A DNA stretch of 64,000 bases. It comes from Melaminivora suipulveris. GTDB taxonomy: Bacteria > Pseudomonadota > Gammaproteobacteria > Burkholderiales > Burkholderiaceae_C. The stretch spans positions 2,628,001 through 2,692,000 of the forward strand of contig NZ_CP027667.1 in the NCBI RefSeq assembly GCF_003008575.1, read 5' to 3'. The translations under genes and the position numbers were made by a program. The notes beneath the pieces are model-generated. The model did no database searches. It was not told where the DNA came from and saw only the letters and a list, made by a program, of their open reading frames with translations. Shown one piece after another: positions 11,308-59,033 of the stretch. Each line of letters opens with the position of its first letter. Position 1 is the first letter of the stretch.

Positions 11308-11410
11308 GAGGTGATTATGCTGAGAATTTTTCCCCGGAGATGGTTAAAAATTTGCACCATCTGAATTGATGCCTTGCCTTTCGTTTTCTGGGGTGTATAT
11401 GAGTTTTTGG

Positions 11411-11470
11411 AAGAAAAAACGGCTTCAGCCAGCGTCTTTCAAGCGCCTTGTGCTATTAAATATGAAGCGC
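11411..11470 (-). repeat. dispersed AT-rich intergenic repeat, copy 2
   Basis: Reversed copy with ATTTAATAGCACAAGGCGCT and then the GC-rich CTGGCTGAAGCC end and a T tract. It lies between the R-M operon and degP, in an AT-rich 250-bp gap that must also hold both divergent promoters. Confidence 0.6.
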
Positions 11471-11559
11471 TCCACCCTAAGATTCACTTAAGCGCCCCCG
11501 CGCACACTGCCTGCCATGGCCGCGACAAGTCCAGCGGCGCAACCCATGAAAGGCAGACC

Positions 11560-13056: not shown

Positions 13057-13059
13057 GGT

Positions 13060-13115
13060 ATTTTTGGCCTGCAGCCGGCATGGAACAAGCGCAAGCAGCT
13101 ATCAAATCAGTAGCT
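13060..13115 (-). repeat. dispersed AT-rich intergenic repeat, copy 3
   Basis: Reversed copy, reading TTTGATAGCTGCTTGCGCTT, then GCCGGCTGCAGGCC and an A/T tract on the minus strand. It begins within a few bases of the degP stop codon and is one of the best-conserved copies. Confidence 0.7.
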
Positions 13116-13192
13116 AGTGCCCGGCTGGCGACGCTGCCCGCCGGGCGCGTCGCTATGCTGGCCGCCATGCCTGCCTGCCCTGAGAGCCTGCC

Positions 13193-15213: not shown

Positions 15214-15244
15214 CAAGCGCGCCGGCCGGACAGGGCGCCATCCG

Positions 15245-15303
15245 AAAGAAAAAGCCCCTCAGTCGGCGTGAATAAAGCGCATGTAGCTATAAAAAAAGTA
15301 GTG
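15245..15303 (-). repeat. dispersed AT-rich intergenic repeat, copy 4
   Basis: Reversed copy, very close to the consensus: TTTATAGCTACATGCGCTTT, then CACGCCGACTGAGGGGCTTT. It sits about 30 bp after the kinase stop. Read on the minus strand in the same frame used by the SCO and M16 genes it is free of stop codons. Confidence 0.75.
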
Positions 15304-15357
15304 TTTGGCAACGGCGGCGAGCGCGGGCGCGGCCGGCCGGGCCGCTATGCTCGCCCC

Positions 15358-22493: not shown

Positions 22494-22546
22494 CGGCAAA
22501 GCCCGGCATTGTAGTCGGCGGCGCCGCCCGGCGGCTGGGCGCGGAC

Positions 22547-22602
22547 GCTATTGAACGTGTAGCTGCCTGCCCATGAAACACGCCGGCTGAGGGCCGATTT
22601 CG
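22547..22602 (+). repeat. dispersed AT-rich intergenic repeat, copy 5
   Basis: Forward copy with GTAGCTGCCTGC and ACGCCGGCTGAGGGC followed by GATTT, between tRNA-Arg and the 3' end of tamB. Confidence 0.65.
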
Positions 22603-22620
22603 CTCGAAAAAGCGCCGCCA

Positions 22621-26760: not shown

Positions 26761-27024
26761 GAAGGAAAGCGGTCAAACGGGGTGCGCGGGCGCCGGCTGT
26801 CGTTCTTGGCACCTACGCGCGAAGGGAAGAAGGCTGCCTGGCAGCCGCGCCTGGGCGCTGGCGGACAGGCGCGCGTTCCCTGCGGCCCAAGGGTACTGCC
26901 GTGCGCGCGAGCGTCTGGCGCGGCGCGCATGAAGCGCTGTAGGAAGCGACGGGCAACGGCTGTAGGCGCGGCCGCAGGCGCGCGGCTGGCGCATGGGGCC
27001 GAGAAGCCGCCGCGTCAGCAAAAT

Positions 27025-27086
27025 ATGAAGAAAAAACGCCTTCAGTCGCCGTGAATAAAGCGCCTTTAGCTACTGAAATTATAGCA
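27025..27086 (-). repeat. dispersed AT-rich intergenic repeat, copy 6; tamA-tamB gap
   Basis: Reversed copy: TAGCTAAAGGCGCTTTATTC and then GGCGACTGAAGGCG and a T tract. It abuts the tamA stop codon. The remaining 26761-27024 stretch holds no gene I can support and no clear terminator; GC-rich sequence there resembles filler. Confidence 0.6.
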
Positions 27087-27087
27087 A

Positions 27088-29067
27088 TCAGAACGTATAG
27101 CCCAGGCGCAGGTGCAGCCGCAGCTGGCGCTCCCGCACGCCGTAGGCCAGGTCCGCCTGCAGCGGCCCCACCGGGCTCTTCCAGCGCAGGCCGGCGCCAA
27201 TGCCCACGCGCGGGCGCAGGTCGCCCACCTTGTCGGCCACGGCGCCGACGTCGATGAAGGTGGCGCTCTCGAAGTCCATGCGGTTGCCGCGGATGGTGAT
27301 GGGGCGCTGCCATTCCACACTGCCCACCGTCAGGTAGCGCCCGCCGTACAGCGTGCCGTGGTCGGTGCGCGCGCCGATGCGCCGCCAGCCGTAGCCACGC
27401 ACGGTGGTGTCGCCGCCGGTCAGGAACAGCTGCGTGACGGGAATCGCCGCGCCACCCCGCGCCAGCACCGCGCCGCCCTCCAGGCGCAGCGAGATGCGAC
27501 TGTTGCGGCGGATGCCTTCGCCCACGTCCACACGGCCGGTGTCGATGAAGGATTGCCAGCGCAGCAGCACGCGCGTGAACGGATCGCGCTCGGGGCGCAG
27601 CGTCATGCCTGCGCCCAGTTCGGCCGCCAGGCCCCAGCCGCGCGTGGGGTTGTTGTTGTCGTTGAAGTAGCGCCCGGTCCAGCCGTAGTTGGCCGTCAGG
27701 GCGCTGCTGGAGGGTGGCGGGTTCTCGCCCTGGCTGCTGGCGGTGTCGAACTGCAGGAAGTAGCTGCGGTCGATGTGGTCGCTGCTTTTGGTGCGGCCGG
27801 CGCGCACGCGGCTGCTGTTGACTTCGTAGTCGCCGGTGGTCTCGCGCTGCAGCTGCAGACCGGTGAACCAGCGCCAGCCGTCCTCGCTGGGCAGCGCCGT
27901 CCAGTCGGTGGAGATCAGCTTGTGCTTGCGGTCGAACTCCAGCTTGGACAGCGCCCGCCAGCCGATGCCGGGCAGGCGGTTGTGCGTGTGCTCCAGCGAC
28001 AGGCGCGGGCCGCTGTCGGTGGACAGGCCGACGCCGAAGACGGCCTTTTGCAGCGGCGCCTCGCGCACCTGCGCGGTCACCGGCACGGCGGCCTCGGCGG
28101 CGTCCCGGTCGATGGCGTCGGTGTTCAGCGTCAGGAACACGGCGTCGTAGTAGCCGCTGCTGGCCAGGCGCTGCTGCGCGTCCAGCAGGCTTTGCTCGCT
28201 GTAGGGCGCGCCGACGGGCACGCGGGCGATGCGGCGCGCGCCCTCGGGGTCGTAGCGCTCGTCGCCCTGGATCTGCACCGGGCCGAAACGCAGATCCGGG
28301 CCGGGGGCGTATTGCACCGACAGGTCGGCGCGGGCCCGGTCGGCATCCACGTCGGCGCGGCTTTTTTCGACGCGCGCCAGCGCGTAGCGGTCGGTCTGCA
28401 GTTGCCGCAGGCCTTGCGATTTGGCGTCGTCCCAGTCGCGCTGGGTAAACGGCGCGCCCGGCTGCAGGCCGAAGGAGCGCTGCAGTTGCGCCTGGCGGCG
28501 CGCCAGCAGCGCGGCGTCGGGCCGCTCGGGCGCGTCGCTGCCCAGCACGCTGATGGCGGTGCTCGCGATCTGCGTGCGCTCGCCGGGCTGCACGCTGACG
28601 GTGATGGTGCGCGCCGGGGTGTCGCTGCGCTCGCCGGCGCCGGGCGCAGGGTTGTCGGTCAGCGCCACCGTGATCTCGGGGCTGAAGTAGCCCAGCGTGG
28701 CCAGCAGCTCGCGCACGTCGGCCTCGGCCGCGCCCAGCAGGCGGCGCAGTTCCTCGTCCTGCAGGTCGGGCAGGTGGGCGAAGCGCTGCAACTGCATGTG
28801 GCGCGCCAGGTATTCGCGCACGTCCTTGTCTGGTGCCTCGACGTGCAGGGCGAAGGCGTCGGGGCCGCTGCCCTCGGGCGCGTCGGATTCGATGGCGCCG
28901 TGCCGCTCGTCGGCCTGGCGCTCGCCGCTGAAGAAATCCTTGATGGTGCCGCAGCCGGGCAGGGCGGCGGCCAGCGCCAGCGTCAGCAGCAGCGCCGGCC
29001 AACGGGAGCGCGGCGCGGCGAACGGATGCGGGGAGGGGGCGGAAGAGGAGGTTGCGTAGATGCTCAC
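27088..29067 (-). CDS. tamA: BamA/TamA-family outer membrane protein (TamA)
   Basis: About 659 residues. N-terminal export signal (WPALLLTLALAAALPGC), POTRA-type repeats at roughly 90-330, then a C-terminal 16-strand barrel ending in LHLRLGYTF with terminal phenylalanine. Conserved barrel segments GGDTTVRGYGWRRIG and GALTANYGW-like strands support the BamA superfamily; pairing with tamB supports TamA. The start is GTG 29067, 11 bp after the upstream VWA stop, because the signal peptide begins shortly after; the frame extends much further upstream as a shadow. The signal ends in an imperfect lipobox LPGC, unusual for a barrel protein. Confidence 0.85.
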   Translation of the reverse strand: MSIYATSSSAPSPHPFAAPRSRWPALLLTLALAAALPGCGTIKDFFSGERQADERHGAIESDAPEGSGPDAFALHVEAPDKDVREYLARHMQLQRFAHLPDLQDEELRRLLGAAEADVRELLATLGYFSPEITVALTDNPAPGAGERSDTPARTITVSVQPGERTQIASTAISVLGSDAPERPDAALLARRQAQLQRSFGLQPGAPFTQRDWDDAKSQGLRQLQTDRYALARVEKSRADVDADRARADLSVQYAPGPDLRFGPVQIQGDERYDPEGARRIARVPVGAPYSEQSLLDAQQRLASSGYYDAVFLTLNTDAIDRDAAEAAVPVTAQVREAPLQKAVFGVGLSTDSGPRLSLEHTHNRLPGIGWRALSKLEFDRKHKLISTDWTALPSEDGWRWFTGLQLQRETTGDYEVNSSRVRAGRTKSSDHIDRSYFLQFDTASSQGENPPPSSSALTANYGWTGRYFNDNNNPTRGWGLAAELGAGMTLRPERDPFTRVLLRWQSFIDTGRVDVGEGIRRNSRISLRLEGGAVLARGGAAIPVTQLFLTGGDTTVRGYGWRRIGARTDHGTLYGGRYLTVGSVEWQRPITIRGNRMDFESATFIDVGAVADKVGDLRPRVGIGAGLRWKSPVGPLQADLAYGVRERQLRLHLRLGYTF

Positions 29068-29078
29068 GCTGCCATTAT

Positions 29079-30266
29079 TTATTTGGACAGGAGCCGCATC
29101 GCATCCTCCAGGCCCTTGAGTGACAGGGGAAACATCCGGTTTCCCATGATCTGCTGGATGACGCCGATGCTCTGGCGGTACTGCCACACGCCCTGCGGCT
29201 CGGGGTTGATCCAGGCGAACCGCGGGAAGGCGTGGGTCAGGCGCTGCAGCCATTCGGCGCCCGGCTCCTCGTTGTTGTATTCGACGCTGCCACCGGGCTG
29301 CAGGATTTCGTAGGGGCTCATGGTGGCGTCGCCGACGAAGACCAGCTTGTAGTCCTTGTTGTACTTGCGGATGATGTCCCAGGTCGGGAATTTCTCGGCG
29401 AAGCGGCGGCGGTTGTTCTTCCACATGTAGTCGTAGACGCAGTTGTGGAAGTAGTAGAACTCCAGGTGCTTGAACTCGGACTTCACCGCCGAGAACAGCT
29501 CTTCCACGCGCGCCACGTGCTCGTCCATGGTGCCGCCCACGTCCATGAGCAGCAGGAGCTTCACGTTGTTGTGCCGCTCGGGCACCATCTTGATGTCCAG
29601 CCAGCCGGCGTTGGCCGCCGTGCTGCGGATGGTGTCCGGCAGGTCCAGCTCCAGGTCGCTGCCGGTGCGGGCGAACTTGCGCAGCCGGCGCAGCGCGACC
29701 TTGATGTTGCGCGTGCCCAGCTCCTGCGTGTCGTCGTAGTCGCGGTAGGCGCGCTGCTCCCAGACCTTCACGGCGCTCCTGTTCTTGCCTGGTCCGCCGA
29801 TGCGCACGCCCTGCGGGTTGTAACCGCCGTGGCCGAAGGGGCTGGTGCCGCCCGTGCCGATCCACTTGTTGCCGCCTTCGTGCCGGCCCTTTTGCTCCTC
29901 CAGGCGCTTCCTTAAAGTCTCCATCAGCTCGTCCCAGCCCATCTTCTCGATGGCGGCCTTTTGCTCGGGCGTCAGCTCGCGCTCGAGCATCTTGCGCAAC
30001 CAGTCGGCGGGGAGTTCGCGGGTGATGTCGGTCAGCAGCTCCACGCCCTTGAAGTAGGCGCCAAAGGCGCGGTCGAACTTGTCGAAGTGCTTCTCGTCCT
30101 TGACCAGGGAAGTGCGCGCCAGGTGGTAGAAGTCGTCCATGCTCCAGGCGTCATCGGAGTTCGGACCGGCGACACCCGCCTGCAGGGCTTCGAGCAGAGT
30201 GAGGAATTCGCGCACCGATACCGGCAGCTTTCCGGCGCGCAAGGCGTAGAAGAAATCGATCAGCAT
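29079..30266 (-). CDS. CoxE-type VWA domain protein
   Basis: A 395-residue cytosolic protein of the VWA/CoxE (COG3552) family. The MIDAS-like metal site is LLLMDVGGTMDEH at about 245-257, a DxGGT variant of DxSxS. The N-terminal helical domain has MLIDFFYALRAGKLPVSVREF. These proteins partner with MoxR AAA ATPases, one of which is encoded three genes upstream in the same direction. The likely role is cofactor insertion or assembly of a protein complex; the client is not evident. Confidence 0.87.
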   Translation of the reverse strand: MLIDFFYALRAGKLPVSVREFLTLLEALQAGVAGPNSDDAWSMDDFYHLARTSLVKDEKHFDKFDRAFGAYFKGVELLTDITRELPADWLRKMLERELTPEQKAAIEKMGWDELMETLRKRLEEQKGRHEGGNKWIGTGGTSPFGHGGYNPQGVRIGGPGKNRSAVKVWEQRAYRDYDDTQELGTRNIKVALRRLRKFARTGSDLELDLPDTIRSTAANAGWLDIKMVPERHNNVKLLLLMDVGGTMDEHVARVEELFSAVKSEFKHLEFYYFHNCVYDYMWKNNRRRFAEKFPTWDIIRKYNKDYKLVFVGDATMSPYEILQPGGSVEYNNEEPGAEWLQRLTHAFPRFAWINPEPQGVWQYRQSIGVIQQIMGNRMFPLSLKGLEDAMRLLSK

Positions 30267-30287
30267 GAAAAATGCCTCCAGCGCTTG

Positions 30288-30887
30288 TCAGTCAAGCGCA
30301 TGGCGCTGCAAAAGATAGAGCAGCTGCGCGCGCGCCTCGGGCCACTCGCCCGAGCGCATGCTGTACATGACGGTGTCGCGGATGGTGCCGTCGCGGCGCA
30401 GCGCATGGCCGCGGATGACGCCGTCCTTCCTGGCGCCCAGGCGCTCGATGGCGCGCTGCGACGCGAAGTTGTAGTTGTCGGTGCGCCAGCCGACCACGTG
30501 GCAGGCCAGCTCATCGAAGGCGTGGCCCATCATGAGCAGCTTGGCGGCGGTGTTCACGTGCGTGCGCTGCACGCTCTTCGCGTACCAGGTCCAGCCGATC
30601 TCCACGCGCCGCACGGCCGGCAGGATGTCGTGGTAGCTGGTGCTGCCCAGCACGCGGCCGGTGGCCTCATGCAGCACGGCGAAGGCGAAGCGGTTGCCGG
30701 CCTCGCGCATGGCCAGCGCGGTCTCGATGTAGGCGCGCGTGTCCTGGGGCTCAGGCACGCTGGTCACACGGATGCGCCACAGCTCGCCATCGGCAGCGGC
30801 GGCGGCCAGGCCGGCTTCGTGCGTGAGAGACAGCGGCTCCAGACGCACGCCGCGGCCTTGCAGGATGACGGGCTCGACGAAGGCCAT
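30288..30887 (-). CDS. GNAT-family N-acetyltransferase (RimJ/RimL-like)
   Basis: A 199-residue acetyltransferase. The N-terminal VRLEPLSLTHEAGLAAAAAD is typical of RimJ/L-type enzymes. The acetyl-CoA site is divergent, with WTWYAKSVQRTHVNTAAKLL replacing the R/Q-x-x-G-x-G/A loop, and NYNFASQRAIERLGARKDG marks motif B. Substrate is unknown. It lies 21 bp upstream of the VWA gene and 2 bp after the small membrane gene, so it is part of the moxR transcript. Confidence 0.85.
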   Translation of the reverse strand: MAFVEPVILQGRGVRLEPLSLTHEAGLAAAAADGELWRIRVTSVPEPQDTRAYIETALAMREAGNRFAFAVLHEATGRVLGSTSYHDILPAVRRVEIGWTWYAKSVQRTHVNTAAKLLMMGHAFDELACHVVGWRTDNYNFASQRAIERLGARKDGVIRGHALRRDGTIRDTVMYSMRSGEWPEARAQLLYLLQRHALD

Positions 30888-34691: not shown

Positions 34692-35393
34692 ATGGTCAAC
34701 AAGATTGCAGATTCGATCGCCGAGGCGCTGGCCGGCGTGCGCGATGGCGCCACGGTGCTGATCGGCGGCTTCGGCAACGCGGGCAGCCCGCGCGAACTCA
34801 TCGACGGGCTGATCGAGCACGGCGCGCGTGATCTGACGGTGGTCAACAACAACGCCGGCAACGGCGACGAGGGCCTGGCCGCGCTGCTCAAAACGGGGCG
34901 CGTGCGCAAGATCATCTGCAGCTTTCCGCGCCAGGCCGACAGCTGGGTCTTCGACGAGCTGTACCGCGCCGGCCGGATCGAACTGGAGCTGGTGCCCCAG
35001 GGCAACCTGGCCGAGCGCATGCGCGCCGCCGGCGCCGGCATCGGTGCCTTCTTCTGCCCCACGGGTTACGGCACCGACCTGGCCGCGGGCAAGGAAACGC
35101 GCGAGATCAATGGCCGCCACTACGTGCTGGAGTACCCCATCCACGGCGACGTGGCGCTCATCCGCGCCGAGCGCGGCGACCGCTGGGGCAACCTGACCTA
35201 CCGCAAGGCGGCGCGCAACTTCGGCCCGGTCATGGCCACGGCCGCCCGCTTTACCGTAGCCACGGTGCACGAGATCGCCGAACTGGGCGCGCTCGACCCC
35301 GAGGCCGTCGTCACACCCGGCATCCACGTGAGCAAAGTGGTGCGCATCCCGCGCACGGCGACCGGCGCCGGTGGCCTGAAAAAATCAGCCTGA
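34692..35393 (+). CDS. pcaI: 3-oxoacid CoA-transferase subunit A
   Basis: A 233-residue alpha subunit of a family I CoA-transferase, moving CoA from succinyl-CoA to 3-oxoadipate or acetoacetate. Visible: the start MVNKIADSIAEALAGVRDGA, the glycine-rich GGFGNAGSPRELIDGL and ADSWVFDELYRAGRIELELV. The two subunits are separate genes 27 bp apart. No other beta-ketoadipate genes are nearby, so 3-oxoadipate versus acetoacetate specificity is open. Confidence 0.88.
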   Translation: MVNKIADSIAEALAGVRDGATVLIGGFGNAGSPRELIDGLIEHGARDLTVVNNNAGNGDEGLAALLKTGRVRKIICSFPRQADSWVFDELYRAGRIELELVPQGNLAERMRAAGAGIGAFFCPTGYGTDLAAGKETREINGRHYVLEYPIHGDVALIRAERGDRWGNLTYRKAARNFGPVMATAARFTVATVHEIAELGALDPEAVVTPGIHVSKVVRIPRTATGAGGLKKSA

Positions 35394-35394
35394 T

Positions 35395-35420
35395 CGGCCT
35401 CAAGCCGTGGAGAATGAAGC

Positions 35421-35441
<21 letters not shown>
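35395..35441 (-). repeat. dispersed AT-rich intergenic repeat, copy 7, overlapping the pcaJ start
   Basis: Reversed copy: TTTTTTGATAGCTACTCACG, followed by the GC-rich end GGCTTGAGGCC. The AT-rich part covers the GTG start and first codons of the following gene. Confidence 0.55.
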
Positions 35442-36071
<630 letters not shown>

Positions 36072-36099
36072 AGGCGCGCTGTCGCCCTGCGTGCTCCTG

Positions 36100-36154
36100 T
36101 TTGTATAGCTGGCTACGTTTGATTTACGCCGACTAGCGGTCTTTTTGTTCCAAA
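36100..36154 (+). repeat. dispersed AT-rich intergenic repeat, copy 8
   Basis: Forward copy: TATAGCTGGCTACGTTTGAT, then ACGCCGACTAGCGGTC and a T tract. It spans the stop codon and last codons of the leftward KefC-type gene and lies between convergent genes. Confidence 0.65.
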
Positions 36155-37998
36155 TCCGGCGGTGGCGCGTCGCTGTGCACCTGGCCGTGCGCCATCCGCT
36201 CCTGACGCTCCTTGGCCAGTTGCTCGACCAGTTGCTGGCGCCCCTGGCGCGCAACGGCGATCATGGCCTCGCGGTCGTGGTGGTGCGCATACATGCGCTC
36301 GGACAGCGCCATGTTGTGGGCGGTGAAGCGCTCGGCAAAGGCCTGGGCCTCGGCGGCGCTCTGACCCATCAGCTCCAGCACCGTGCGCGCGCTGGCCACG
36401 CTGGCGCGGAACACCTCGCGCTCGGCGTGCTGCACGCCCAGCTCGCGCAGCGCGTGCCAGTGCGTCACGTCGCGCGCGCGGGCGACGATCTGTAGGTGCG
36501 GAAAATGCTTGCGCGCGGCCTGCACGATCTTGAGCGACTGCTCGGGCGCATCCACCGCCACCACCAGCACGCGCGCGCTCTCGGCGCCCGCCAGGCGCAG
36601 CAGCGGCACGCGCGTGGCGTCGCCGTAGAACACGCGGTAGCCGAAGGTGTGCGCCACCTCCAGCATCTCCACGCTGTGGTCCAGCACCGTGGCCGGCAGG
36701 CCCTGCGCCAGCACCATGCGCGCGACGATCTGCCCGTAGCGGCCAAAGCCGGCGATGATGACCGGCGCGCCCTGCGGCTCGCGCAGCGTGCGCTCGTCGG
36801 GCATCGCGGGCTGCGGCGCCAGGCGCGCATGGCGCGGCAGCAACCAGCGATCCAGCAGCACCAGCAAAAGCGGCGACAGCAGCATGGACAGCGCCACCGC
36901 GCCGATCAGGAGCGACGCCGCCTCGCTGCGGATGGCGCCGAAGCTGGCACCGGTCTGGAAGACCACGAAGGCGAATTCGCCGCCCTGCGCCAGCAGCAGC
37001 GTGAACACCGGCCGCTCCTGGTAAGGCATGGCGGTGGCGCGCGCCAGCAGCCAGATGACCAGCGCCTTGATGGCCAGAAAGCCCAGCAGCAGCGCCAGCA
37101 TGGTCCCCGGCGCGCGCGCCAGCACGCCGAAGTCGATGCTCATGCCCACGGCGATGAAGAACAGGCCCAGCAGCAGCCCTTTGAAGGGCTCGATGTCGGT
37201 CTCCAGCTCGCGCCGGTACTCGCTGTCGGCCAGCAGCACGCCGGCCAAAAACGCCCCCAGCGCCATCGACAGGCCGATGGACAGCATCAGCATGGCGATG
37301 CCCACCACCAGGAACAGCGACGCGGCGGTGAAGATCTCCGGCTGCTTGCTGCGCGCGATCCAGCGCAGCACCGGACGCAGCAGCCAGCGCCCGCCCAGCA
37401 CGATGGCGCCGACCGCGGCGGCAATGCGCAGCGCCTCGCCGGCCAGCTCCTCGCCGCTGTGCGGCTGCGCCGACGCCACCGCGCCCAGCAGGGGCAGCAG
37501 CGCGAGGATGGGGATGGCGGCCACGTCCTGGAACAGCAGGATGGAAAAGGCCTTTTGCCCGCTGTCGGTGCGCATCAGGTTGCGCTCGGCCAGCACCTGC
37601 AGGGCGATCGCCGTGGACGACAGCGCCAGGCCTAAAGCGCCCACCAGCGCCATGCGCCAGGGCAGGCCCAGCGCCCAGGCCGCCGCCCACAGCAGCAAGG
37701 CGCAACCGGCCATCTGCGCGCTTCCCAGGCCCAGGATGGGGCGGCGCAGGCTCCACAGGCGCTGCGGCTGCAGCTCCAGGCCGACCAGGAACAGCATCAG
37801 CACCACGCCGAACTCGGCGAAGTGCAGGATGTCCTGCACGTTGCTCACCAGGGCCAGGCCCCAGGGCCCGATGGCGATGCCCGCCGCCAGGTAGCCGATG
37901 ATGGCGCCCAGGCCCAGCGCGCGGGCGATGGGCACTGCGATCACCGCGGCTGCCAGATAGGTGAAGCCGTAGGTGAGCCAGGCGGGGGCTTGGGCCAT
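36133..37998 (-). CDS. KefB/KefC-type monovalent cation:proton antiporter
   Basis: A 621-residue CPA2-family transporter. About 12 membrane segments in the first 390 residues include GFTYLAAAVIAVPIARALGL and AEFGVVLMLFLVGLELQPQRLW. An RCK/TrkA-N domain follows with PVIIAGFGRYGQIVARMVLA and the acidic GDATRVPLL site, then a charged, glutamine-rich tail. It probably exports K+ in exchange for H+ under electrophile stress. ATG 37998 is preferred as it precedes the first helix; a GTG at 38040 would add 14 residues. The last codons lie inside a dispersed repeat. Confidence 0.9.
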   Translation of the reverse strand: MAQAPAWLTYGFTYLAAAVIAVPIARALGLGAIIGYLAAGIAIGPWGLALVSNVQDILHFAEFGVVLMLFLVGLELQPQRLWSLRRPILGLGSAQMAGCALLLWAAAWALGLPWRMALVGALGLALSSTAIALQVLAERNLMRTDSGQKAFSILLFQDVAAIPILALLPLLGAVASAQPHSGEELAGEALRIAAAVGAIVLGGRWLLRPVLRWIARSKQPEIFTAASLFLVVGIAMLMLSIGLSMALGAFLAGVLLADSEYRRELETDIEPFKGLLLGLFFIAVGMSIDFGVLARAPGTMLALLLGFLAIKALVIWLLARATAMPYQERPVFTLLLAQGGEFAFVVFQTGASFGAIRSEAASLLIGAVALSMLLSPLLLVLLDRWLLPRHARLAPQPAMPDERTLREPQGAPVIIAGFGRYGQIVARMVLAQGLPATVLDHSVEMLEVAHTFGYRVFYGDATRVPLLRLAGAESARVLVVAVDAPEQSLKIVQAARKHFPHLQIVARARDVTHWHALRELGVQHAEREVFRASVASARTVLELMGQSAAEAQAFAERFTAHNMALSERMYAHHHDREAMIAVARQGRQQLVEQLAKERQERMAHGQVHSDAPPPDLEQKDR

Positions 37999-38073
37999 GA
38001 GGGGCGGGATCGGAGAGAAGCGGGACAAAAATTTTGACACCGCTGCGTGCGATCCCGCTGGCTGGCAGTTCTC

Positions 38074-38140
38074 ATGCTATCCATTTGATAGCTATAAACC
38101 ATTCAAACACGCCGACTGAAGGCCTTTTTGCATGAAATAG
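38074..38140 (+). repeat. dispersed AT-rich intergenic repeat, copy 9
   Basis: Forward copy: TTTGATAGCTATAAACC, then CACGCCGACTGAAGGCC and TTTTTGCATGAAA. It occupies the divergent gap between the KefC-type and LysE-type genes. Confidence 0.75.
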
Positions 38141-46897: not shown

Positions 46898-46934
46898 ACC
46901 GGCCGCGCGAGGTTCGATCAGCAGTCGTTCGATT

Positions 46935-46994
46935 CAAAAATGATAGCTGGAGGCGCTTGTTCCACGCCGACTGAGGGCCTAAAACACTGAAAAT
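46935..46994 (+). repeat. dispersed AT-rich intergenic repeat, copy 10
   Basis: Forward copy: AAATGATAGCTGGAGGCGCT, then ACGCCGACTGAGGGCC and A-rich sequence. Between the coxC terminator and the leftward DUF2909 gene. Confidence 0.75.
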
Positions 46995-47034
46995 CGGTGT
47001 TTCGCGGCCCCCGCAGAGCCCATTTGAAAGCCCC

Positions 47035-50043: not shown

Positions 50044-50963
50044 GCGCCGCTCCCGCCCCCGCTGCCAGTCCCCATCGCTCCGCTCCGGCCCTGCCGCCGC
50101 GGCTGGCGCAGTTCTACGCGCTGACCAAGCCGCGCGTGGTGCAGCTCATCGTGTTTTGCGCCTTCATCGGCATGGTGCTGGCCGTGCCGGGCCTGCCCAG
50201 CGGCGCGCAGTGGCTGCAGATGGCCATTGCCAGCGCGGGCATCTGGCTGGTGGCGGGCGCCGCTGCGGCCTTCAACTGCCTGGTCGAGCGCGGCATCGAC
50301 GCGCGCATGAAGCGCACCTCCTGGCGGCCCACGGCCAGGGGCGAGCTGTCGGCCACCCAGGCGCTGGCGTTCTCGGCGCTGCTGTGCGCGGCCGGATCGG
50401 CGCTGCTGTACGTGCTGGTCAACCCACTGACCATGTGGCTCACCTTTGCCACCTTCGTCGGCTACGCGGTGATCTACACCGTGATCCTCAAACCGCTGAC
50501 GCCGCAGAACATCGTCATCGGCGGCGCATCGGGCGCCATGCCACCGGTGCTGGGCTGGGCGGCCATGACCGGGGAAGTCGGCCCCGAGGCGCTGATCCTG
50601 TTTTTGATCATCTTCCTGTGGACGCCGCCGCACTTCTGGGCGCTGGCGCTGTACCGCGTGGAGGACTACCGCAAATCCGGCCTGCCCATGCTGCCGGTGA
50701 CGCACGGCAACGAATTCACGCGGCTGCAGGTGTTTCTCTACACCCTGATCCTGTTCGCCGGCTGCCTGATGCCCTTCATCTACGGCATGAGCTCGTGGAT
50801 CTACCTGATCGCCGCGGTGCTGCTCAGCCTGGGTTTCTGTTTCTATGGCTTCTGGCTGTGGCGCGACTATTCCGACCAGCTGGCGCGCAAGACCTTCCGC
50901 TTTTCCCTGATCCACCTGAGCGTGCTGTTCGCCGCGCTGCTGGTGGACCACTACGTGTTGTGA
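50040..50963 (+). CDS. ctaB: protoheme IX farnesyltransferase (heme O synthase)
   Basis: A 307-residue UbiA-superfamily prenyltransferase. The two allylic diphosphate/Mg2+ motifs are [15 protein letters not shown] near 79 and the second acidic region around [16 protein letters not shown], with [17 protein letters not shown] between. About nine membrane helices. The start overlaps the ctaA stop, and the stop overlaps the sco start (TGATG). Provides heme O for CtaA. Confidence 0.95.
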
Positions 50964-51592
50964 TGCTTCTTCTATCCCGTCGTATAGCTATAAAAAATAT
51001 AGCTACAAGCGCTTTAATTACGCCGACTGCGGCCGCTTTTCTCTCTGCCTGCTCGCCCAGCCCGGGGCCGGCGAAGTTCCAGGGCATCGACGTGACCGGC
51101 GCCGACTACGCGCGCGATCTGCCGCTGCCCGACCAGGACGGCCGCATGCGCAGCCTGTCCGAGTTCGCCGGCAAGGTGGTGGTGGCCTTCTTCGGCTATA
51201 CGCAGTGCCCGGACGTGTGCCCCACGGCCATGAACGAGCTGGCCGAGGTCAAGCGCTCGCTGGGTGCCGACGGCGCGCGCGTGCAGGGCATCTTCGTCAC
51301 CGTCGATCCCGAGCGCGACACGCCCGAGGTGCTCAAGGCCTACATGGCCAACTTCGACCCGACCTTCATCGGCCTGCGCGGCTCGCCCGAGCAGCTGGCG
51401 GCCGTGGCCAAGGACTTCAAGATCTATTACAAGCGGGTAGAGGGCAGCACCCCCACCAGCTACACCATGGACCACTCGGCCGGCAGCTACGTCTACGACA
51501 CGGCCGGCCGCCTGCGCGTCTACCACCGTTACGGCAGCGGCGCCCAGGCGCTGGCCGCCGACGTGCGCACGCTGCTGAATCAGGCCGGCTGA
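50963..51592 (+). CDS. SCO1/SenC copper chaperone lipoprotein, signal peptide made from a dispersed repeat
   Basis: A 209-residue membrane-tethered thioredoxin-fold protein that loads CuA in CoxB. Copper ligands CPDVC are in FGYTQCPDVCPTAMNE and the histidine in SYTMDHSAGSYVYD. The N-terminal lipoprotein signal ends FLSACSPS. Codons 8-28 coincide with a copy of the window-wide intergenic repeat, encoding IAIKNIATSALITPTAAAFL. The ATG overlaps the ctaB stop, and no other start would leave a signal peptide. Last gene of the oxidase assembly operon. Confidence 0.9.
   Translation: MLLLSRRIAIKNIATSALITPTAAAFLSACSPSPGPAKFQGIDVTGADYARDLPLPDQDGRMRSLSEFAGKVVVAFFGYTQCPDVCPTAMNELAEVKRSLGADGARVQGIFVTVDPERDTPEVLKAYMANFDPTFIGLRGSPEQLAAVAKDFKIYYKRVEGSTPTSYTMDHSAGSYVYDTAGRLRVYHRYGSGAQALAADVRTLLNQAG
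50981..51043 (+). repeat. dispersed repeat, copy 11, inside the SCO signal-peptide coding region
   Basis: Forward copy: TATAGCTATAAAAAATATAG, then AAGCGCTTTAATTACGCCGA and CTGCGGCCGCTTTT. It is fully contained in the coding sequence and read in the same frame as copy 12. Confidence 0.8.
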
Positions 51593-51668
51593 GCGGCTGC
51601 GTCTGGTCGGCGCGCCAGGGCAGCGCCGGGCCTGGCGTGGCCTCGGCGCCTGGGCTTTCTCTTGTGGA

Positions 51669-52685
51669 TTACTGCGCCGTGATCTTCTGCTCGCGGATCA
51701 CGCGGCCCATGGCGGCGGTGTCGGCGCGCATGCGGTTGGCCAGGCCCTCGGCCGACGAACCCACGGCCTGCCAGCCCTGCTGGAACATCTTCTCGCGCAC
51801 GGCCGGGCTGCGCGCGATCTCGCTGATGGCGGCCGACAGGCGCGCGCGCACCGGTGCCGGCATGCTGGCCGGTGCGGCAAAGGCGTTCCAGATCTCCAGC
51901 TGGAAATCCTGCACTCCAGCCTCGGCCAGGCTGGGCACCTCGGGCGCCAGCGTGCTGCGGCCGGCCGAGGTCACCCCCACGCGCTTGAGCTTGCCGGCGC
52001 GCTCCTGCGACAGCGCCAGCGCCGGCGGCAGCAGCGCCATCTGCAGCTGGCCGCCGCCCATGGCCGTGGCCACCTGCGGATAGCCGGGGTAGGGCACATG
52101 CACCGGGTTGATGCCGGTGCGCGCCTTGAGCAGCTCGGTGCCCAGATGGCCCACCGTGCCCACGCCGGGCGTGCCGTAGCTCCAGCGGTCGCCGGCGGCG
52201 CGCGCGGCATCCAGGAAGGCGCGGGCATCGCCATCGGCGGGCACGTCCTTTTGCCCCACCGGCGCCGTGAGCACCAGCGGCGACACGCCGATCAGCGACA
52301 GCGGCGCGAAGTCGCGCGCCGGGTCGTAGGGCACCTGCGGGTTGATCAGCTTGGCGATCGTCAGGTTGCCGTTGATGAACAGGCCGATGGTGTGGCCATC
52401 CGTGGCCTTGGCCACAGCGTCGGCGCCGATGTTGCCGCCGGCGCCGACCTTGTTCTCCACGATGACCGGCTGGCCCAGTGCCTGCGACAGCGGCTCGGCA
52501 AAGGTGCGCGCCGTCAAATCCGGCGACGAGCCGGGCGGAAAGCCCACGATGATGCGCACCGTCTTGGCTGGCCAGCCGGGCGTCGCCGGCGCGCTCTGTG
52601 CGGCAGCGACGCCGCAGGCGCCGGCCAGCCCGGCGGCAACGGCGAGAGTGAGCAGGGCGCGGCGTGCGGGAGTGGGACGGTGCAT
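51669..52685 (-). CDS. Bug/TctC-family tripartite tricarboxylate transporter receptor
   Basis: A 338-residue periplasmic solute-binding protein. The signal peptide (ALLTLAVAAGLAGACGVAAA) is followed by the family hallmark KTVRIIVGFPPGSSPDLTAR, then QPVIVENKVGAGGNIGADAV and TPGVGTVGHLGTELLK. Bug proteins are hugely expanded in Comamonadaceae/Alcaligenaceae and bind carboxylates; the ligand is unknown and the TctAB partners are not nearby. The start ATG 52685 has GGAGA upstream and begins the signal peptide. Confidence 0.92.
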   Translation of the reverse strand: MHRPTPARRALLTLAVAAGLAGACGVAAAQSAPATPGWPAKTVRIIVGFPPGSSPDLTARTFAEPLSQALGQPVIVENKVGAGGNIGADAVAKATDGHTIGLFINGNLTIAKLINPQVPYDPARDFAPLSLIGVSPLVLTAPVGQKDVPADGDARAFLDAARAAGDRWSYGTPGVGTVGHLGTELLKARTGINPVHVPYPGYPQVATAMGGGQLQMALLPPALALSQERAGKLKRVGVTSAGRSTLAPEVPSLAEAGVQDFQLEIWNAFAAPASMPAPVRARLSAAISEIARSPAVREKMFQQGWQAVGSSAEGLANRMRADTAAMGRVIREQKITAQ

Positions 52686-52757
52686 GGATAGGTCTCCAGT
52701 GTGGGAAAAAGAAAAAACGGCGCCTGCAGCAGCAGTGAGCAAGGCCCGGCGCACCAG

Positions 52758-52785
52758 CGCAGAACGCAAAACGCAGAACGCAGGA
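52758..52785. repeat. four imperfect 7-bp tandem repeats
   Basis: CGCAGAA, CGCAAAA, CGCAGAA and CGCAGGA in a row, upstream of the Bug receptor gene and next to the rpoH terminator. Confidence 0.7.
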
Positions 52786-52786
52786 C

Positions 52787-52819
52787 GAAAAAAAGCGCGC
52801 ACCCATGAAGGATGCGCGC
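52787..52819 (-). terminator. intrinsic terminator of rpoH
   Basis: On the minus strand the stem GCGCGCATCC / GGGTGCGCGC with a 5-base loop, followed by seven T, 42 bp past the rpoH stop. Confidence 0.88.
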
Positions 52820-52860
52820 CGTGGATTATCCGCTTGCCCCTCGTTGGGGCCGGCCGGGGG

Positions 52861-53799
<939 letters not shown>

Positions 53800-53833
53800 G
53801 GCAGATGTCCTTTCGTGTGGGTGGTAAATCATA

Positions 53834-53860
53834 TTAGCACTCGCTTGGATAGAGTGCTAA
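53834..53860. promoter_or_regulatory. perfect CIRCE operator (HrcA-binding) upstream of rpoH
   Basis: TTAGCACTC-N9-GAGTGCTAA with no mismatch, the consensus binding site of the heat-shock repressor HrcA. It begins 34 bp before the rpoH start codon and lies in the gap to the divergent cutA. This places rpoH itself under HrcA control. Confidence 0.95.
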
Positions 53861-53921
53861 GGCCATAAGTTCCCCCCGAACGGGCGGACGGGCAGCGCCC
53901 ATCGCGTGCCAAACTGAGGGC

Positions 53922-54251
53922 ATGACCTCTTCCAATCACGGCGAGATCGCCATCCTGACCACCACGGTCGCCAGCGCCGAGGACGCCACTCGGCTGGCAT
54001 CCGGGGCCGTGCAGGAGCGGCTGGCCGCCTGCGTTCAGATCGAGGCCATTCGCTCTCACTATGTCTGGCAGGGACAGGCCTGCGAGGAAGCCGAATGGCG
54101 CTTGTCATGTAAGACCTTGCCGGCTGCGGCTGCGCGCCTGGTCGCATGGCTGCGTAGCTGCCACCCCTACGAGGTGCCGCAGCTGCTCACGCACAGCGTG
54201 CAGGCCGAGGCCGATTACGCCGCCTGGGTGGCGCAGCAGGTGGACGGCTGA
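53922..54251 (+). CDS. cutA: CutA1 divalent-cation tolerance protein
   Basis: A 109-residue trimeric PII-like protein. Recognised by ILTTTVASAEDATRLASGAV, the AACVQIEAIRSHYVWQG segment and the C-terminal YEVPQLLTHSVQAEADYAAW. Linked to copper tolerance in E. coli, but its biochemical role remains unclear. Divergent from rpoH, so its promoter may overlap the CIRCE region; convergent with ftsY. Confidence 0.92.
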   Translation: MTSSNHGEIAILTTTVASAEDATRLASGAVQERLAACVQIEAIRSHYVWQGQACEEAEWRLSCKTLPAAAARLVAWLRSCHPYEVPQLLTHSVQAEADYAAWVAQQVDG

Positions 54252-54273
54252 GGCGCCGCCCCGCCCGGGCCGG

Positions 54274-55410
<1,137 letters not shown>

Positions 55411-55439
55411 TGGCGGGTTCTTAGAATCGCATCCATTCT

Positions 55440-56888
55440 ATGAAACGCGCTCTTTCCCTCATCGCCCTGCTGGCGGGCGTCCATGCGCTGGCCCAGCAGC
55501 CCCCATCTTCGCCCGGCCCGGCCGCCAGCACGCGGGCGACCACCGCCACCGGCGCGCAGCAGTTCACTCTGGACAACGGCATGCAGCTCATCGTCCAGCC
55601 CGACCGGCGCGCGCCCACCGCCATGCACATGGTCTGGCTGCGCGTGGGCTCCATGGACGAGGTGGACGGCACCTCGGGCGTGGCGCACGTGCTGGAGCAC
55701 ATGATGTTCAAGGGCACCAAGGACGTGCCGGCGGGCGAGTTCTCGCGCCGTGTGGCCGCTTTGGGCGGGCAGGAGAACGCCTTCACCAGCCGCGACTACA
55801 CCGGCTACTACCAGCAGATCCCGGCCGACCGCCTGGCCGAAGTCATGCGGCTCGAATCCGACCGCTTCGCGCACAACCAGTGGCCCGACGAGGAGTTCAA
55901 GCGCGAGCTGGAGGTCGTCAAGGAGGAGCGGCGCATGCGCACCGACGACCAGCCGCGCGCCGCGATGATCGAGCAGCTGTACGCCAGCACCTTCATCGCC
56001 TCGCCGTATCGGCGCCCGGTGGTGGGCTGGATGAGCGACCTGGACGCCATGACGCCCCAGGATGCGCGCCAGTTCCACGCGCGCTGGTACGTGCCCGCCA
56101 ATGCCGCAGTGGTGGTCGCGGGCGACGTCGATCCGCAGCAGGTGCTGGCGCTGGCGCAGCAGACCTACGGCACCATCCCGGCGCGCGCCGTGCCCACGAG
56201 GAAGCCGCGCGAAGAACCTGAGCAAAAGGGCATGCGCCGCATCGAGTTCAAGGCGCCGGCCGACCAGGCCTACGTGGCGCTGGCTTTCCGCGTGCCGCGC
56301 ATCGAGCGCGTGGCGGACTTGACCGCGTCCGACCGCGACGCGCTGGCGCTGCTGGCGCTGTCGGCCGTGCTGAGCGGCTACGACGGCGCACGGCTGCAGC
56401 GCGCGCTCACGCAGGGGGCCGACCGCGTGGCCGACAACGCCGGCAGCGACGCCTCGGTGGTCGGGCGCGGGCCGGCGCTGTTTCTGCTGACCGGCGTGCC
56501 GGCTGCGGGCAAGACTGCGGCCCAAGTCGAGGCCGCGCTGCGCACCGAGATCGCCCGCGTGGCGCGCGAGGGTATTGGCAGCGCCGAGCTCTCGCGCGTG
56601 ACCACGCAATGGGCCGCGGGCACCATCTACGCGCGCGACTCGCTGCAGTCGCAGGCGAGCGACTTGGGGCAAAACTGGGTGCAGGGCCTGCCGCTGGACG
56701 CCGACGAGCGCCTGTTGCAACTGCTGCGCGGGGTGACACCGGCCGAGGTGCAGTCGGTGGCGGCGCGCTACTTCGGCGACGACCAGCTCACCATCGCCAC
56801 CCTGGTGCCTCAGCCGCGCCCGGCGCAGCCGCGCACCGCGCCCGCGCCCGCGCCGGCCGGCGACGCGTCGAACACGCGCATGCATTGA
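55440..56888 (+). CDS. M16-family zinc peptidase, catalytically competent partner
   Basis: A 482-residue exported pitrilysin-type peptidase. Signal peptide ALSLIALLAGVHALAQQ, then the inverted zinc motif HVLEHMMFKGT (HxxEH) near 82-86 and the distal glutamate region LEVVKEERRMRTDD. Both M16 halves are present. It is followed 9 bp later by a second M16 gene lacking the zinc motif; such pairs work as heterodimers in other bacteria. Confidence 0.92.
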   Translation: MKRALSLIALLAGVHALAQQPPSSPGPAASTRATTATGAQQFTLDNGMQLIVQPDRRAPTAMHMVWLRVGSMDEVDGTSGVAHVLEHMMFKGTKDVPAGEFSRRVAALGGQENAFTSRDYTGYYQQIPADRLAEVMRLESDRFAHNQWPDEEFKRELEVVKEERRMRTDDQPRAAMIEQLYASTFIASPYRRPVVGWMSDLDAMTPQDARQFHARWYVPANAAVVVAGDVDPQQVLALAQQTYGTIPARAVPTRKPREEPEQKGMRRIEFKAPADQAYVALAFRVPRIERVADLTASDRDALALLALSAVLSGYDGARLQRALTQGADRVADNAGSDASVVGRGPALFLLTGVPAAGKTAAQVEAALRTEIARVAREGIGSAELSRVTTQWAAGTIYARDSLQSQASDLGQNWVQGLPLDADERLLQLLRGVTPAEVQSVAARYFGDDQLTIATLVPQPRPAQPRTAPAPAPAGDASNTRMH

Positions 56889-56897
56889 AAGGCGCCC

Positions 56898-58274
56898 ATG
56901 CTGACATCGATCACTATTAAAAAGATAGCTGCCCGCGCTTTATTGACGGCGACTGGAGCCCTTTTTTATTCAAATTTCGCCTGGGCGCTGCTGCCCATCG
57001 AGCACTGGAGCGAAGCCAGCGGCGCACGCGTCTGGCTGGTGCAAAGCCCGGCCATCCCCATGGTCGACGTGCAGATCGACTTCGACGCCGGCTCGCGCCG
57101 TGATCCGGCGCCGCAGGCCGGCTTGGCCAGCGCCGCGGCGCTGATGAGCGGCAAGGGCGTGACGGCGGCCGGCAGCGAGCCGGCGCTGGACGAGAACGAC
57201 CTGGGCGAGGCCTGGGCCGACCTGGGCGCGAGTTTTGACGCCGGCGCCGAGCGCGACGGCCTGGTCTTCAGCCTGCGCTCGCTGACCGAGGCCGACTTGC
57301 TGGAGCGCGCCGCGCAGCTGGCCGCGCGCCAGCTCGCCCAGCCCAGCTTTGACGCCAGCGTCTGGCAACGCGAGCGGGCGCGCTGGACGGCCAGCATCCG
57401 CGAAGCCGACACGCGCCCCGGCACCGTGGCCGCCAAAGCCTTCGCCGCCGCCGTCTATGGCGGCCATCCCTACGGCCAATTCCCCACCGCCGAGACGCTC
57501 GCGCGCATCGCCGTGCCCGACATGCAGGCTTTTCACCAGCGCTATGTGCAGGCCTGCCGCGCACGCGTGTCCATCGTCGGCGCAGTGACGCCTGCGCAGG
57601 CGCAGACCCTGGTGCAAACCTTGCTGTCGCGCCTGCCCGCGCGGGATGCCGCTGCCTGCGCACCGCTGCCGCCCGTGCCGCCGGTGCAGCGTCTTGAGCG
57701 CGCGGTGCAGGAAAACATTCCGTTCGCCTCGGCGCAGGCGCATGTGCTGCTCGGCCAGCCGGGCTTTGTGCGCAAGGACCCGGACTTTCTCGCGCTCCTG
57801 GTGGGCAACCACATCCTGGGCGGCGGCGGCTTCACCTCGCGCCTGACGCACGAAGTGCGCGAGACGCGCGGGCTGACTTACGGCGTGTACAGCGGTTTCT
57901 CGCCCGGGCTGAACGCCGGCGCCTTTGCCGTGGGCCTGCAGACCCGCCCCGACCAGGCGGGCCAGGCCTTGACTGTTACGCGCGAGGTGCTGGCGCGCTT
58001 CGTCGCGGACGGCCCCACCGAGGCCGAGTTGCGCGCCGCCAAGGACAACCTGATCGGCGGCTTCGCGCTGCGCATCGACAGCAATAGGAAGCTCCTGGCC
58101 AACGTGGTCAACATCGCCTGGAACGACCTGCCGCTGGACTACCTGGAGCACTGGACCGACCGGGTGCAGGCGCTGACCACGCAGGACATCCGCGCCGCGA
58201 TGCAAAGAAAGCTCCAGCCCGAGCGCATGGTCACCGTGGTCGTCGGCGCGCAGCCGCCGGCCGGCAAGCCATGA
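56898..58274 (+). CDS. M16-family protein without zinc motif; signal peptide from a dispersed repeat
   Basis: A 458-residue M16 homologue. The HxxEH motif is replaced (PQAGLASAAALMSGKG), so it is probably a non-catalytic partner of the preceding gene, contributing the glycine-rich/R-Y pair (HEVRETRGLTYGVYSGFSPG). N-terminal residues 5-25, including the hydrophobic signal IAARALLTATGALF, are encoded by a copy of the dispersed repeat. The ATG has AAAGG upstream; the mature protein starts near WALLPIEHW. Its stop overlaps the rsmD start. Confidence 0.88.
   Translation: MLTSITIKKIAARALLTATGALFYSNFAWALLPIEHWSEASGARVWLVQSPAIPMVDVQIDFDAGSRRDPAPQAGLASAAALMSGKGVTAAGSEPALDENDLGEAWADLGASFDAGAERDGLVFSLRSLTEADLLERAAQLAARQLAQPSFDASVWQRERARWTASIREADTRPGTVAAKAFAAAVYGGHPYGQFPTAETLARIAVPDMQAFHQRYVQACRARVSIVGAVTPAQAQTLVQTLLSRLPARDAAACAPLPPVPPVQRLERAVQENIPFASAQAHVLLGQPGFVRKDPDFLALLVGNHILGGGGFTSRLTHEVRETRGLTYGVYSGFSPGLNAGAFAVGLQTRPDQAGQALTVTREVLARFVADGPTEAELRAAKDNLIGGFALRIDSNRKLLANVVNIAWNDLPLDYLEHWTDRVQALTTQDIRAAMQRKLQPERMVTVVVGAQPPAGKP
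56907..56967 (+). repeat. dispersed repeat, copy 12, inside the M16 signal-peptide coding region
   Basis: Forward copy: ATTAAAAAGATAGCTGCCCG, GCTTTATTGACGGCGACTGG, then AGCCCTTTTTT. Aligned gap-free over 21 codons with the copy in the SCO gene (45 of 63 bases identical by my count), same frame. Confidence 0.8.
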
Positions 58275-58918
58275 GCCGCGCTGCGCGCGGCGGCAGGGCG
58301 CCCGCCTCCGCACGCCCAGCCAAAGCGGTCGCACGCCCCGCCGCCGTGCAGGCGCCCGGCGAGGTGCGCATCATCGGCGGGCAATGGAAGCGCAGCAAAT
58401 TGCCCGTGGCCGACCGGCCTGGCCTGCGCCCCACGCCCAACCGCGTGCGCGAGACGCTGTTCAACTGGCTGGGCCAGGACCTGGCCGGCTGGCACTGCCT
58501 GGACGCGTTTGCCGGTACCGGCGCCTTGGGTTTCGAGGCGGCCTCGCGCGGCGCCTCCGGCGTGCTGCTGGTCGAGCAGGACGCGGCCCTGGTGGCCGCG
58601 CTGCGCGCCACCGCCCAGCGCCTGTCGGCCGGCGCCGTGCGCGTGCAGCGCGGCGACGGCCTGGCCGCCCTGCGCGCCGCCGCGCCGGCCAGCCTGCACT
58701 TGGTGCTGATCGATCCGCCCTTTGGTCACGACGAGTTTTTCATGCCAGCGCTGCAGGCGGCGGCGCGCGCCCTGGCGCCCGATGGCTTCATCTACCTGGA
58801 AGCGCCCACGCGCTGGGCGGACAAGACGCTGGAGGCGCTGGGCCTGCAGCAGCACCGCCATCTGCATGCCGGCGCCGTGCACGCCCATCTGTTGCGCCGG
58901 GCGGCTGGCGCGGAGTGA
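58271..58918 (+). CDS. rsmD: 16S rRNA (guanine(966)-N2)-methyltransferase RsmD
   Basis: A 215-residue methyltransferase modifying G966 of 16S rRNA. The basic N-terminus is followed by RIIGGQWKRSKLPVAD and LRPTPNRVRETLFNWLGQ, SAM motif I CLDAFAGTGALGFEAASRGA, and the catalytic DPPF in LVLIDPPFGHDEF. The start overlaps the M16 stop (ATGA). Confidence 0.94.
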   Translation: MSRAARGGRAPASARPAKAVARPAAVQAPGEVRIIGGQWKRSKLPVADRPGLRPTPNRVRETLFNWLGQDLAGWHCLDAFAGTGALGFEAASRGASGVLLVEQDAALVAALRATAQRLSAGAVRVQRGDGLAALRAAAPASLHLVLIDPPFGHDEFFMPALQAAARALAPDGFIYLEAPTRWADKTLEALGLQQHRHLHAGAVHAHLLRRAAGAE

Positions 58919-58987
58919 TTTTTGCTACTTAAATAATAGCTAAAGACGCTTATTCCGCGCCGACTGAGGCCATAAAACGCTCAAAAC
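58917..58987 (+). repeat. dispersed AT-rich intergenic repeat, copy 13
   Basis: Forward copy: AAATAATAGCTAAAGACGCT, then GCGCCGACTGAGGCC and AAAACG. It overlaps the rsmD stop codon and separates it from the convergent LprI-like gene. Confidence 0.7.
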
Positions 58988-59033
58988 CAGCACGCAGGGC
59001 GCCTCCATGGCGCGGATCGCCCGCGAATGCTCC

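Follow-up and report, generated by a model that had tools for sequence, protein, structure and literature searches.

The DNA analysed here, the window, is a 64,000-nucleotide stretch of the Melaminivora suipulveris genome (labelled G000; positions 2628001-2692000 of a 3.75-Mb single contig). It contains genes for two unrelated exported proteins, an SCO1/SenC lipoprotein and the second of two neighbouring M16 peptidase-like proteins, whose predicted signal peptides are encoded by copies of an AT-rich repeat of about 60 nucleotides (nt). The repeat is dispersed through this genome and through those of many relatives, and its genome-specific forms are called dialects below. The central features are these, in window positions:

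50963..51592, plus strand: SCO1/SenC lipoprotein gene (Pfam PF02630, E 6e-45), with a 30-residue signal peptide
50978..51047, plus strand: repeat copy in the SCO signal peptide, in the window-genome dialect, ACGCCGACT (nhmmer)
56898..58274, plus strand: second M16 peptidase-like gene (Pfam PF05193, PF00675), signal peptide MLTSITIKKIAARALLTATGALFYSNFAWA
56905..56978, plus strand: repeat copy forming the n- and h-region of the M16 signal peptide, in the window-genome dialect, ACGGCGACT (nhmmer)

A sequence-only reading of this stretch had proposed that the two signal-peptide segments align without gaps and are both copies of a repeat scattered between genes. Its coordinates, frames and peptides for the two segments are correct, and the Pfam matches uphold both protein identities. 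Positions 50984-51046 and 56910-56972 are identical at 45 of 63 nt, where the best of 20,000 random pairs of 63-mers from the window reaches 35. With the SCO segment alone as query, nhmmer recovers the M16 segment (E 7e-6) together with 15245-15291 (3e-5), 27032-27097 (1e-4), 46926-46978 (0.005) and 11412-11467 (0.008), which identifies both segments as copies of the dispersed repeat. The SCO lipobox follows directly after the repeat. The minus-strand copy at 15245-15303 is free of stops in the signal-peptide frame, again as had been read from the letters.

The search for further members used a profile of 16 signal peptides in the repeat frame, whose training set included SCO, M16 and a cytochrome of relative G019. 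It returned at least 130 six-frame matches in G000 (150 of 401 candidates scored), and context was inspected for 70 of these, the 30 best and 40 picked for stop-free open frames. Three more exported genes with repeat-encoded starts in frame, a class that the sequence-only reading had proposed to search for, were found in this way: an ABC-auxiliary lipoprotein (PF03886), GspD (PF21305, PF03958) and DsbD (PF11412). The five score 51.3 (M16), 45.7 (SCO), 45.6 (lipoprotein), 36.5 (GspD) and 31.5 bits (DsbD) against the hidden Markov model of the G000 repeat. At the level of DNA sequence, the repeat serves in a single frame as coding DNA for the predicted signal peptides of five exported proteins of one genome. 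The same profile finds M16, SCO, GspD, the lipoprotein and a small exported-looking protein in G008 (30 of 114 matches inspected), and the signal peptide of a cytochrome c gene in G019 lies inside a repeat.

The earlier proposal that the repeat was co-opted at gene starts as an export signal holds for these signal peptides and is too narrow as a general rule. The linker of polA (DNA polymerase I) in G000 contains an in-frame copy in the window-genome dialect (43.6 bits; L136:10899 onward, G000:2990899), and the linker is repeat-like in several relatives too, with more than 12 bits in 6 of 16. An rlmL-like methyltransferase gene of G000 carries an in-frame repeat-like stretch (31.8 bits; L129:7917-8453, minus strand). 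The first 20 or so codons of an Hsp70-like gene in G014 (L156:16699-18606, minus strand), for whose product export is not expected, are a repeat copy in the signal-peptide frame. One candidate, L286 (MNAFQW..), was not counted as a repeat copy at 5.8 bits; a similar gene in G008 scores 29.2. In two genera a small Cys-rich gene that may be DUF1289-like begins with a repeat copy, again in the signal-peptide frame (L134:2788 in G000, L392:1501 in G008). A count of gene overlaps in all frames over 117 copies gave 5' overlaps of 4, 0 and 1 for the forward frames and 3, 7 and 1 for the reverse. We do not build on this count, since several reverse-strand cases look like starts called within an upstream repeat; coding use of frames other than that of the signal peptides may still be compatible with it.

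With the SCO and M16 copies kept out of its seed, an iterative repeat profile picks up 50 copies in regularly spaced G000 stretches that total 400 kb, and 17 to 60 copies per 100 kb in six relatives. G006 and G007 yield 2 and 3 copies in 100-kb samples, yet at least 132 and at least 144 by whole-genome search. Stretches and window together hold 64 copies in 464 kb of G000, from which the whole genome would have about 520. Copies are 60-80% alike, and the conserved span is about 50-60 nt. The canonical form is GCTATTGAATTGATAGCTGCTAGCGCTTGCCGGACAAGCGCTAGAGGC (95 copies; G003, G014, G008, G019). Dialects lie in a genome-specific right half, reading ..GCGCTTGATTCACGCCGGCTGAAGGC in G000, ..GGCCCTTGTNNAGCAAGGGCTGG in G001, ..GCGCTTGCCCAGCAAGGGTTTGAGG in G004 and ..GCGCTTG..CAAGCGCT in the other genomes, and in the G001 lineage both arms of the palindrome are altered (GGCCCTTG..CAAGGGC). 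The AGC within the core ATAGC is invariant across 35 copies from seven genomes. Dialects also co-occur: among the 64 copies of G000, 41 have ACGCCGRCT, 6 AACGGC, 2 AAGCGC and 15 some other form. A minor sub-dialect with both palindrome arms changed to CCGTT..AACGG is seen at 2611-2687 of the window and at L138:1363-1420, AACGG occurring in 6 of the 64. In G019, four copies stand in tandem on the minus strand of L172:18056-18608 at a spacing of about 165 bp, and the array stops just before a prepilin-like start (RGFTLIEVLV).

Dialects make it possible to ask of each coding copy which genome's repeats it resembles. Seven genome-specific repeat models were made from 17-61 sampled copies each, with four known coding copies masked and a possible coding copy in L134 left unmasked. 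All seven were used to score 33 coding copies from five genes; GspD and polA of G019 were excluded as non-repeat-like (2.5 and 5.2 bits). After double centring, a coding copy scores on average 8.06 bits higher with the model of its own genome, and the excess is positive in every genome. The true assignment of labels is the best of 5040 permutations, the best of 720 when G000 is removed, and the best of 24 among four congeners. The mean own-model excess for G000 is 21.4 bits. Its SCO copy scores 41.6 bits with the G000 model and 21.4 with the next best, its M16 copy 47.9 and 27.5. The own model ranks top for 5 of 5 copies in G000, 3 of 5 in each of G003 and G004, 2 of 5 in each of G008 and G014, 1 of 5 in G001 and 1 of 3 in G019.

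Within the coding copies of G000 the resemblance forms a mosaic. Compared with the majority of their orthologues, the five genes match at 12-15 of the left 15 nt, at 8-13 of the next 15 and at 12-16 of the right 18. Over the central 18 nt they match the orthologue majority at 10-11 positions and the G000 repeat consensus at 12-14. The core ACG[CG]CG[AG]CT occurs in the centres of all five unrelated G000 genes; it is absent from all 31 of their orthologous copies and from all 97 named M16 and SCO signal regions. The lipoprotein gene reads ACAAGGGTTTCAGGG in G004 and ACCAGGGCTGGAGCC in G001, each by eye like the dialect of its own genome. An intergenic site downstream of rsmD behaves in a similar way: 23 of 77 named relatives carry a canonical repeat there in the same orientation (at least 16 bits with the canonical model), and the G000 model detects the G000 copy at this site (45 bits) while the canonical one misses it. 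By this comparison of DNA, coding copies shift along with the other repeats of the genome in which they lie, most clearly in G000. The sequence-only reading had missed this lineage-specific concerted change; what it described is confirmed and belongs to a larger phenomenon.

The window model was built from 13 copies, SCO and M16 included, so its recovery of those 13 is by construction; it adds one weaker copy. Besides the two coding copies the window contains the following, all located with the nhmmer model:

58913..58989, plus strand: intergenic repeat copy 3' of rsmD, in the window-genome dialect
15237..15310, minus strand: repeat copy, stop-free in the signal-peptide frame
46922..46995, plus strand: repeat copy
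27023..27093, minus strand: repeat copy
11403..11478, minus strand: repeat copy
13051..13124, minus strand: repeat copy
22537..22611, plus strand: repeat copy
38063..38140, plus strand: repeat copy
36083..36157, plus strand: repeat copy
30256..30333, minus strand: repeat copy in the canonical (AAGCGC) dialect, surviving in the window genome
2611..2687, minus strand: repeat copy with CCGTTG..CAACGG arms (the minor sub-dialect)
35392..35448, minus strand: the weaker copy (E 1e-5)

How old the coding copies are was judged from named relatives, taking the best 80 of 247 M16 loci, with 392 pieces of mature coding DNA as control (best score 11.7 bits). The signal-peptide DNA exceeds the control maximum at 57 of the 80 M16 loci and at 11 of 17 SCO loci, one of these by just 0.1 bit. 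The SCO gene of L225 and the M16 gene of G018 (a split match) were left out, and G002 has no SCO match. Sixteen genomes were searched for the other two genes. GspD scores above 15 bits in 6 of the 13 relatives scored, the remaining three offering no usable N-terminus (a partial gene in G002, other secretins in G006 and G018), and the lipoprotein does so in 8 of 12, four genomes being without a match. In Acidovorax facilis (L208), for example, the signal-peptide DNA is the repeat: ATG ATT ACT ATT AAA AAC ATA GCT GCT CGC GCT TTA CTG ATA AGC GCT GGA GCC ATT TTT. Repeat-like signals of SCO, M16, GspD and the lipoprotein in several other genera argue for old insertions. Different genera also share bases that are specific to a locus (in M16 ACT in place of GCT and CGC in place of AGC, in GspD CAT, in polA GAT), which favours a single old insertion in each gene over a series of recent ones. 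By this comparison of orthologues, the insertions that could be compared predate the split of several genera. The thought that the repeat had recently repaired export signals does not survive, as orthologues of many genera have it in the same place.

Repeat-like signal peptides go largely with genomes that have many repeats. A general repeat model, R2, was built from seven genomes; absence of the repeat means no R2 match, and at most 150 candidates were scored per genome. The SCO signal DNA is repeat-like in none of the 10 low-repeat relatives (at most 4 matches), where it gives no match or -1 bits and less, versus 11 of the 12 high-repeat relatives that have the gene (at least 18 matches), where it reaches at least 13 bits. 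For M16 the counts are none of the 4 low-repeat genomes scored (best 8.2 bits, in G010) versus 10 of 12 high-repeat genomes (at least 18 bits). The GspD and lipoprotein signals are likewise not repeat-like where the genome has almost no repeat. The replacement of signal-peptide DNA by non-repeat sequence where repeats are scarce is what the sequence-only reading had led one to expect. G022 has no repeat match, yet its GspD keeps the peptide ALHSIAAS with the GC-rich codons GCC CTG CAC TCC ATT; here the peptide retains the repeat and the DNA does not, so protein selection alone seems not to keep the repeat letters.

Codon usage fits the same conclusion. In the 80 M16 signal peptides ATA makes up 72% of 111 Ile codons, compared with 3.1% of 1151 in the mature part; TTA makes up 15% of Leu codons compared with 0.2%, and GCT 37% of Ala codons compared with 3.9%. 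The start region of the neighbouring M16 gene, taken from 76 of the same loci over about residues 10-33 and so not exactly the first 25 codons, has TTA at 0 of 120 Leu codons; its Ile codons, only 5, are too few to use.

The common reading frame of the coding copies is real and in part forced. The frame used by the genes is open in 29 of the 64 G000 copies, intergenic and genic together, where shuffles at 36% would give about 23; letter shuffles are open at 33-39% in each frame. The other two forward frames are open in just 1 and 13 of the 64, so that stop codons account in part for the common frame; the reverse frames are open in 25, 30 and 9. Open copies have a mean hydropathy of 0.26 in the signal-peptide frame, and copies are neither unusually open nor unusually hydrophobic. 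The latent signal-peptide open reading frame that had been ascribed to the element gains little from these counts; the repeat looks more like raw material than like a maintained signal-peptide frame.

Structure in RNA was considered as a conserved feature of the repeat. The canonical consensus with its T-rich tail gives two hairpins and folds well (z -3.07). No consensus base pairs were found across 13 or 35 copies and individual copies keep no paired structure, which speaks against a conserved RNA structure or intrinsic terminator. In an Rfam scan of the window, a tRNA is the sole match reaching its gathering score (RF00005, 64.4 bits; 22422-22493, minus strand); it lies near the repeat copy at 22537. 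A RAYT is also rejected as driver in the window genome, as far as this family model detects such genes: a search of G000 for PF01797 (Y1_Tnp) gave 0 matches, and single matches occur in each of G005, G009, G011, G012, G017 and G022, all without a repeat match. Across the genomes searched, no link was seen between RAYT presence and repeat number. G019 has 20 PF01797 matches (L261, for example), with several near-identical Y1 transposase genes and copies in two pieces.

We consider the following account likely to be right. Long ago, a short dispersed repeat (about 60 nt) that occurs in many genera of this family became part of the 5' ends of SCO, the second M16 gene, GspD, the ABC-auxiliary lipoprotein and DsbD and of a few other coding sites such as the DNA polymerase I linker, read in the most open of its forward frames. 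There, by sequence anatomy, it would supply the n- and h-region of the signal peptide. The copies would then have been homogenised in place with the repeats of the genome by a process, akin to conversion or transformation, that takes other copies as its template and transfers short central tracts between repeats, and purifying selection for a working protein would merely filter the outcome. Taken together, the results suggest a genome-wide repeat process that rewrites protein sequences. The broader form of this proposal is that a genome-wide homogenising drive on Comamonadaceae repeats crosses gene borders and rewrites the same signal-peptide and polA-linker codons in parallel within one lineage, so that the evolution of these parts of proteins follows selfish or functional DNA instead of their own orthologues. 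On that claim our judgement is evenly balanced.

Several observations weigh against the main account. The own model is the best in just 17 of the 33 coding copies, and for three of five G001 copies the top score comes from the G000 model, which slightly lowers our confidence; the models rest on 17-61 copies per genome, and related genomes give similar models. The central fit of 12-14 versus 10-11 of 18 positions is a modest difference for any one gene. The signal peptide does not rise above the control level at 23 of the 80 M16 loci and 6 of the 17 SCO loci. In G006, which is rich in repeats, the SCO signal is not repeat-like, and neither is the M16 signal in G002 or G016. At the start of the neighbouring M16 gene GCT reaches 14% of Ala codons, where mature M16 has 3.9%, so that part of the GCT bias is not due to the repeat. 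Finally, recombination over about 20 nt between copies 60-80% alike is not expected to be efficient, and conversion would therefore need an unusual route.

Dialect matching might also reflect selection on the DNA, and this is the main rival to homogenisation. A trans-acting factor, differing in specificity between lineages, would bind or process the repeat, and all copies, coding ones too, would track that factor through point mutation and selection. An AGC that stays invariant within its core, a lineage (G001) in which both palindrome arms have changed, and an orthologous intergenic site that has changed as well are all in keeping with such a site. Individual copies, however, are widely diverged and without kept paired structure, several dialects are found in one genome, and selection would be needed at each of hundreds of sites, one of them within polA; we regard this rival as doubtful, while taking it seriously. 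Repeated fresh insertion, with the same gene starts receiving in every lineage that lineage's own repeat, would produce the dialect match without homogenisation, and a repeat number ranging from 0 to at least 150 per genome means that the family does expand and shrink. Every insertion would need the same frame and the same place, and in five genes the codons flanking the centre on both sides are locus-specific and common to orthologues. Because of this mosaic, fresh insertion is improbable. To the idea that these are ordinary conserved signal peptides, alike through convergence on AT-rich, rare-codon sequence, we give hardly any credence. Rare codons are often present at gene starts, and many lipoprotein or Tat signals look like the peptide motif KRxALKxIAxxAL. 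The likeness, though, covers about 50 ordered nucleotides including both palindrome arms, the neighbouring M16 start lacks TTA altogether in its Leu codons, and convergence leaves the dialect match unexplained, the dialect test refuting it unless better sampling overturns that test.

If homogenisation in place is correct, protein segments can change by forces that do not act on the protein, and repeat turnover, not protein selection, sets residues of several export signals in a lineage. The system would then be a natural experiment on in-place homogenisation of dispersed bacterial repeats, because the coding copies hold locus-specific marks able to reveal tract borders. It would account for AT-rich, rare-codon signal peptides in high-GC genomes, and it carries a warning that orthologue alignments of repeat-encoded N-termini follow the history of the repeat.

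Known systems share some of these properties. REP elements and their RAYTs are similar in that the repeat is short, high-copy and mostly intergenic with a palindromic consensus. By eye, neither a GTAG nor a CGTC end tag, as named in the title of PMC3733652, is present on the consensus sequences. The window genome differs from a REP/RAYT system in having no Y1_Tnp match. DNA uptake sequences, at 10-12 nt, are much shorter than the repeat of about 60 nt, and act in transformation. In Neisseriaceae the uptake sequence is a high-copy motif with dialects conserved within species and differing between them (PMC3630211); species or lineage dialects are found here too, and this is the nearest analogy for a high-copy motif that varies by lineage.

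In-frame repeats have been described before. Rickettsia palindromic elements (RPE) are 105-146 bp long and in frame in 19 reading frames (Ogata et al. 2000, as cited in PMC2229807). They are dispersed palindromic repeats in frame within unrelated conserved genes, and here too one repeat family is both intergenic and in frame in unrelated conserved genes. The likeness to RPE is one of description only, and the available part of PMC2229807 states no signal-peptide role and no tracking of genome dialects. The enterobacterial units RU-1 and RU-2 (ERIC, YPAL) are mobile units of 127 and 168 bp; RU-1f open reading frames give predicted membrane segments, and the signal-peptide case for RU-2 is a putative 144-aa protein of two Yersinia species (PMC2759123). 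In contrast with those units, the present repeat is about 60 nt long, is used by known, conserved exported proteins across several genera, and shows concerted change. A search of titles and abstracts, with most subscription journals outside its scope, brought up no paper that we recognised as dealing with this Comamonadaceae repeat or with concerted change of signal peptides. In-frame repeat peptides, including one predicted signal peptide, are already known from the RPE of Rickettsia and RU-2 of Yersinia; as far as the literature searched shows, what is new is the breadth, with five exported proteins in one genome and several genera, and the concerted change.

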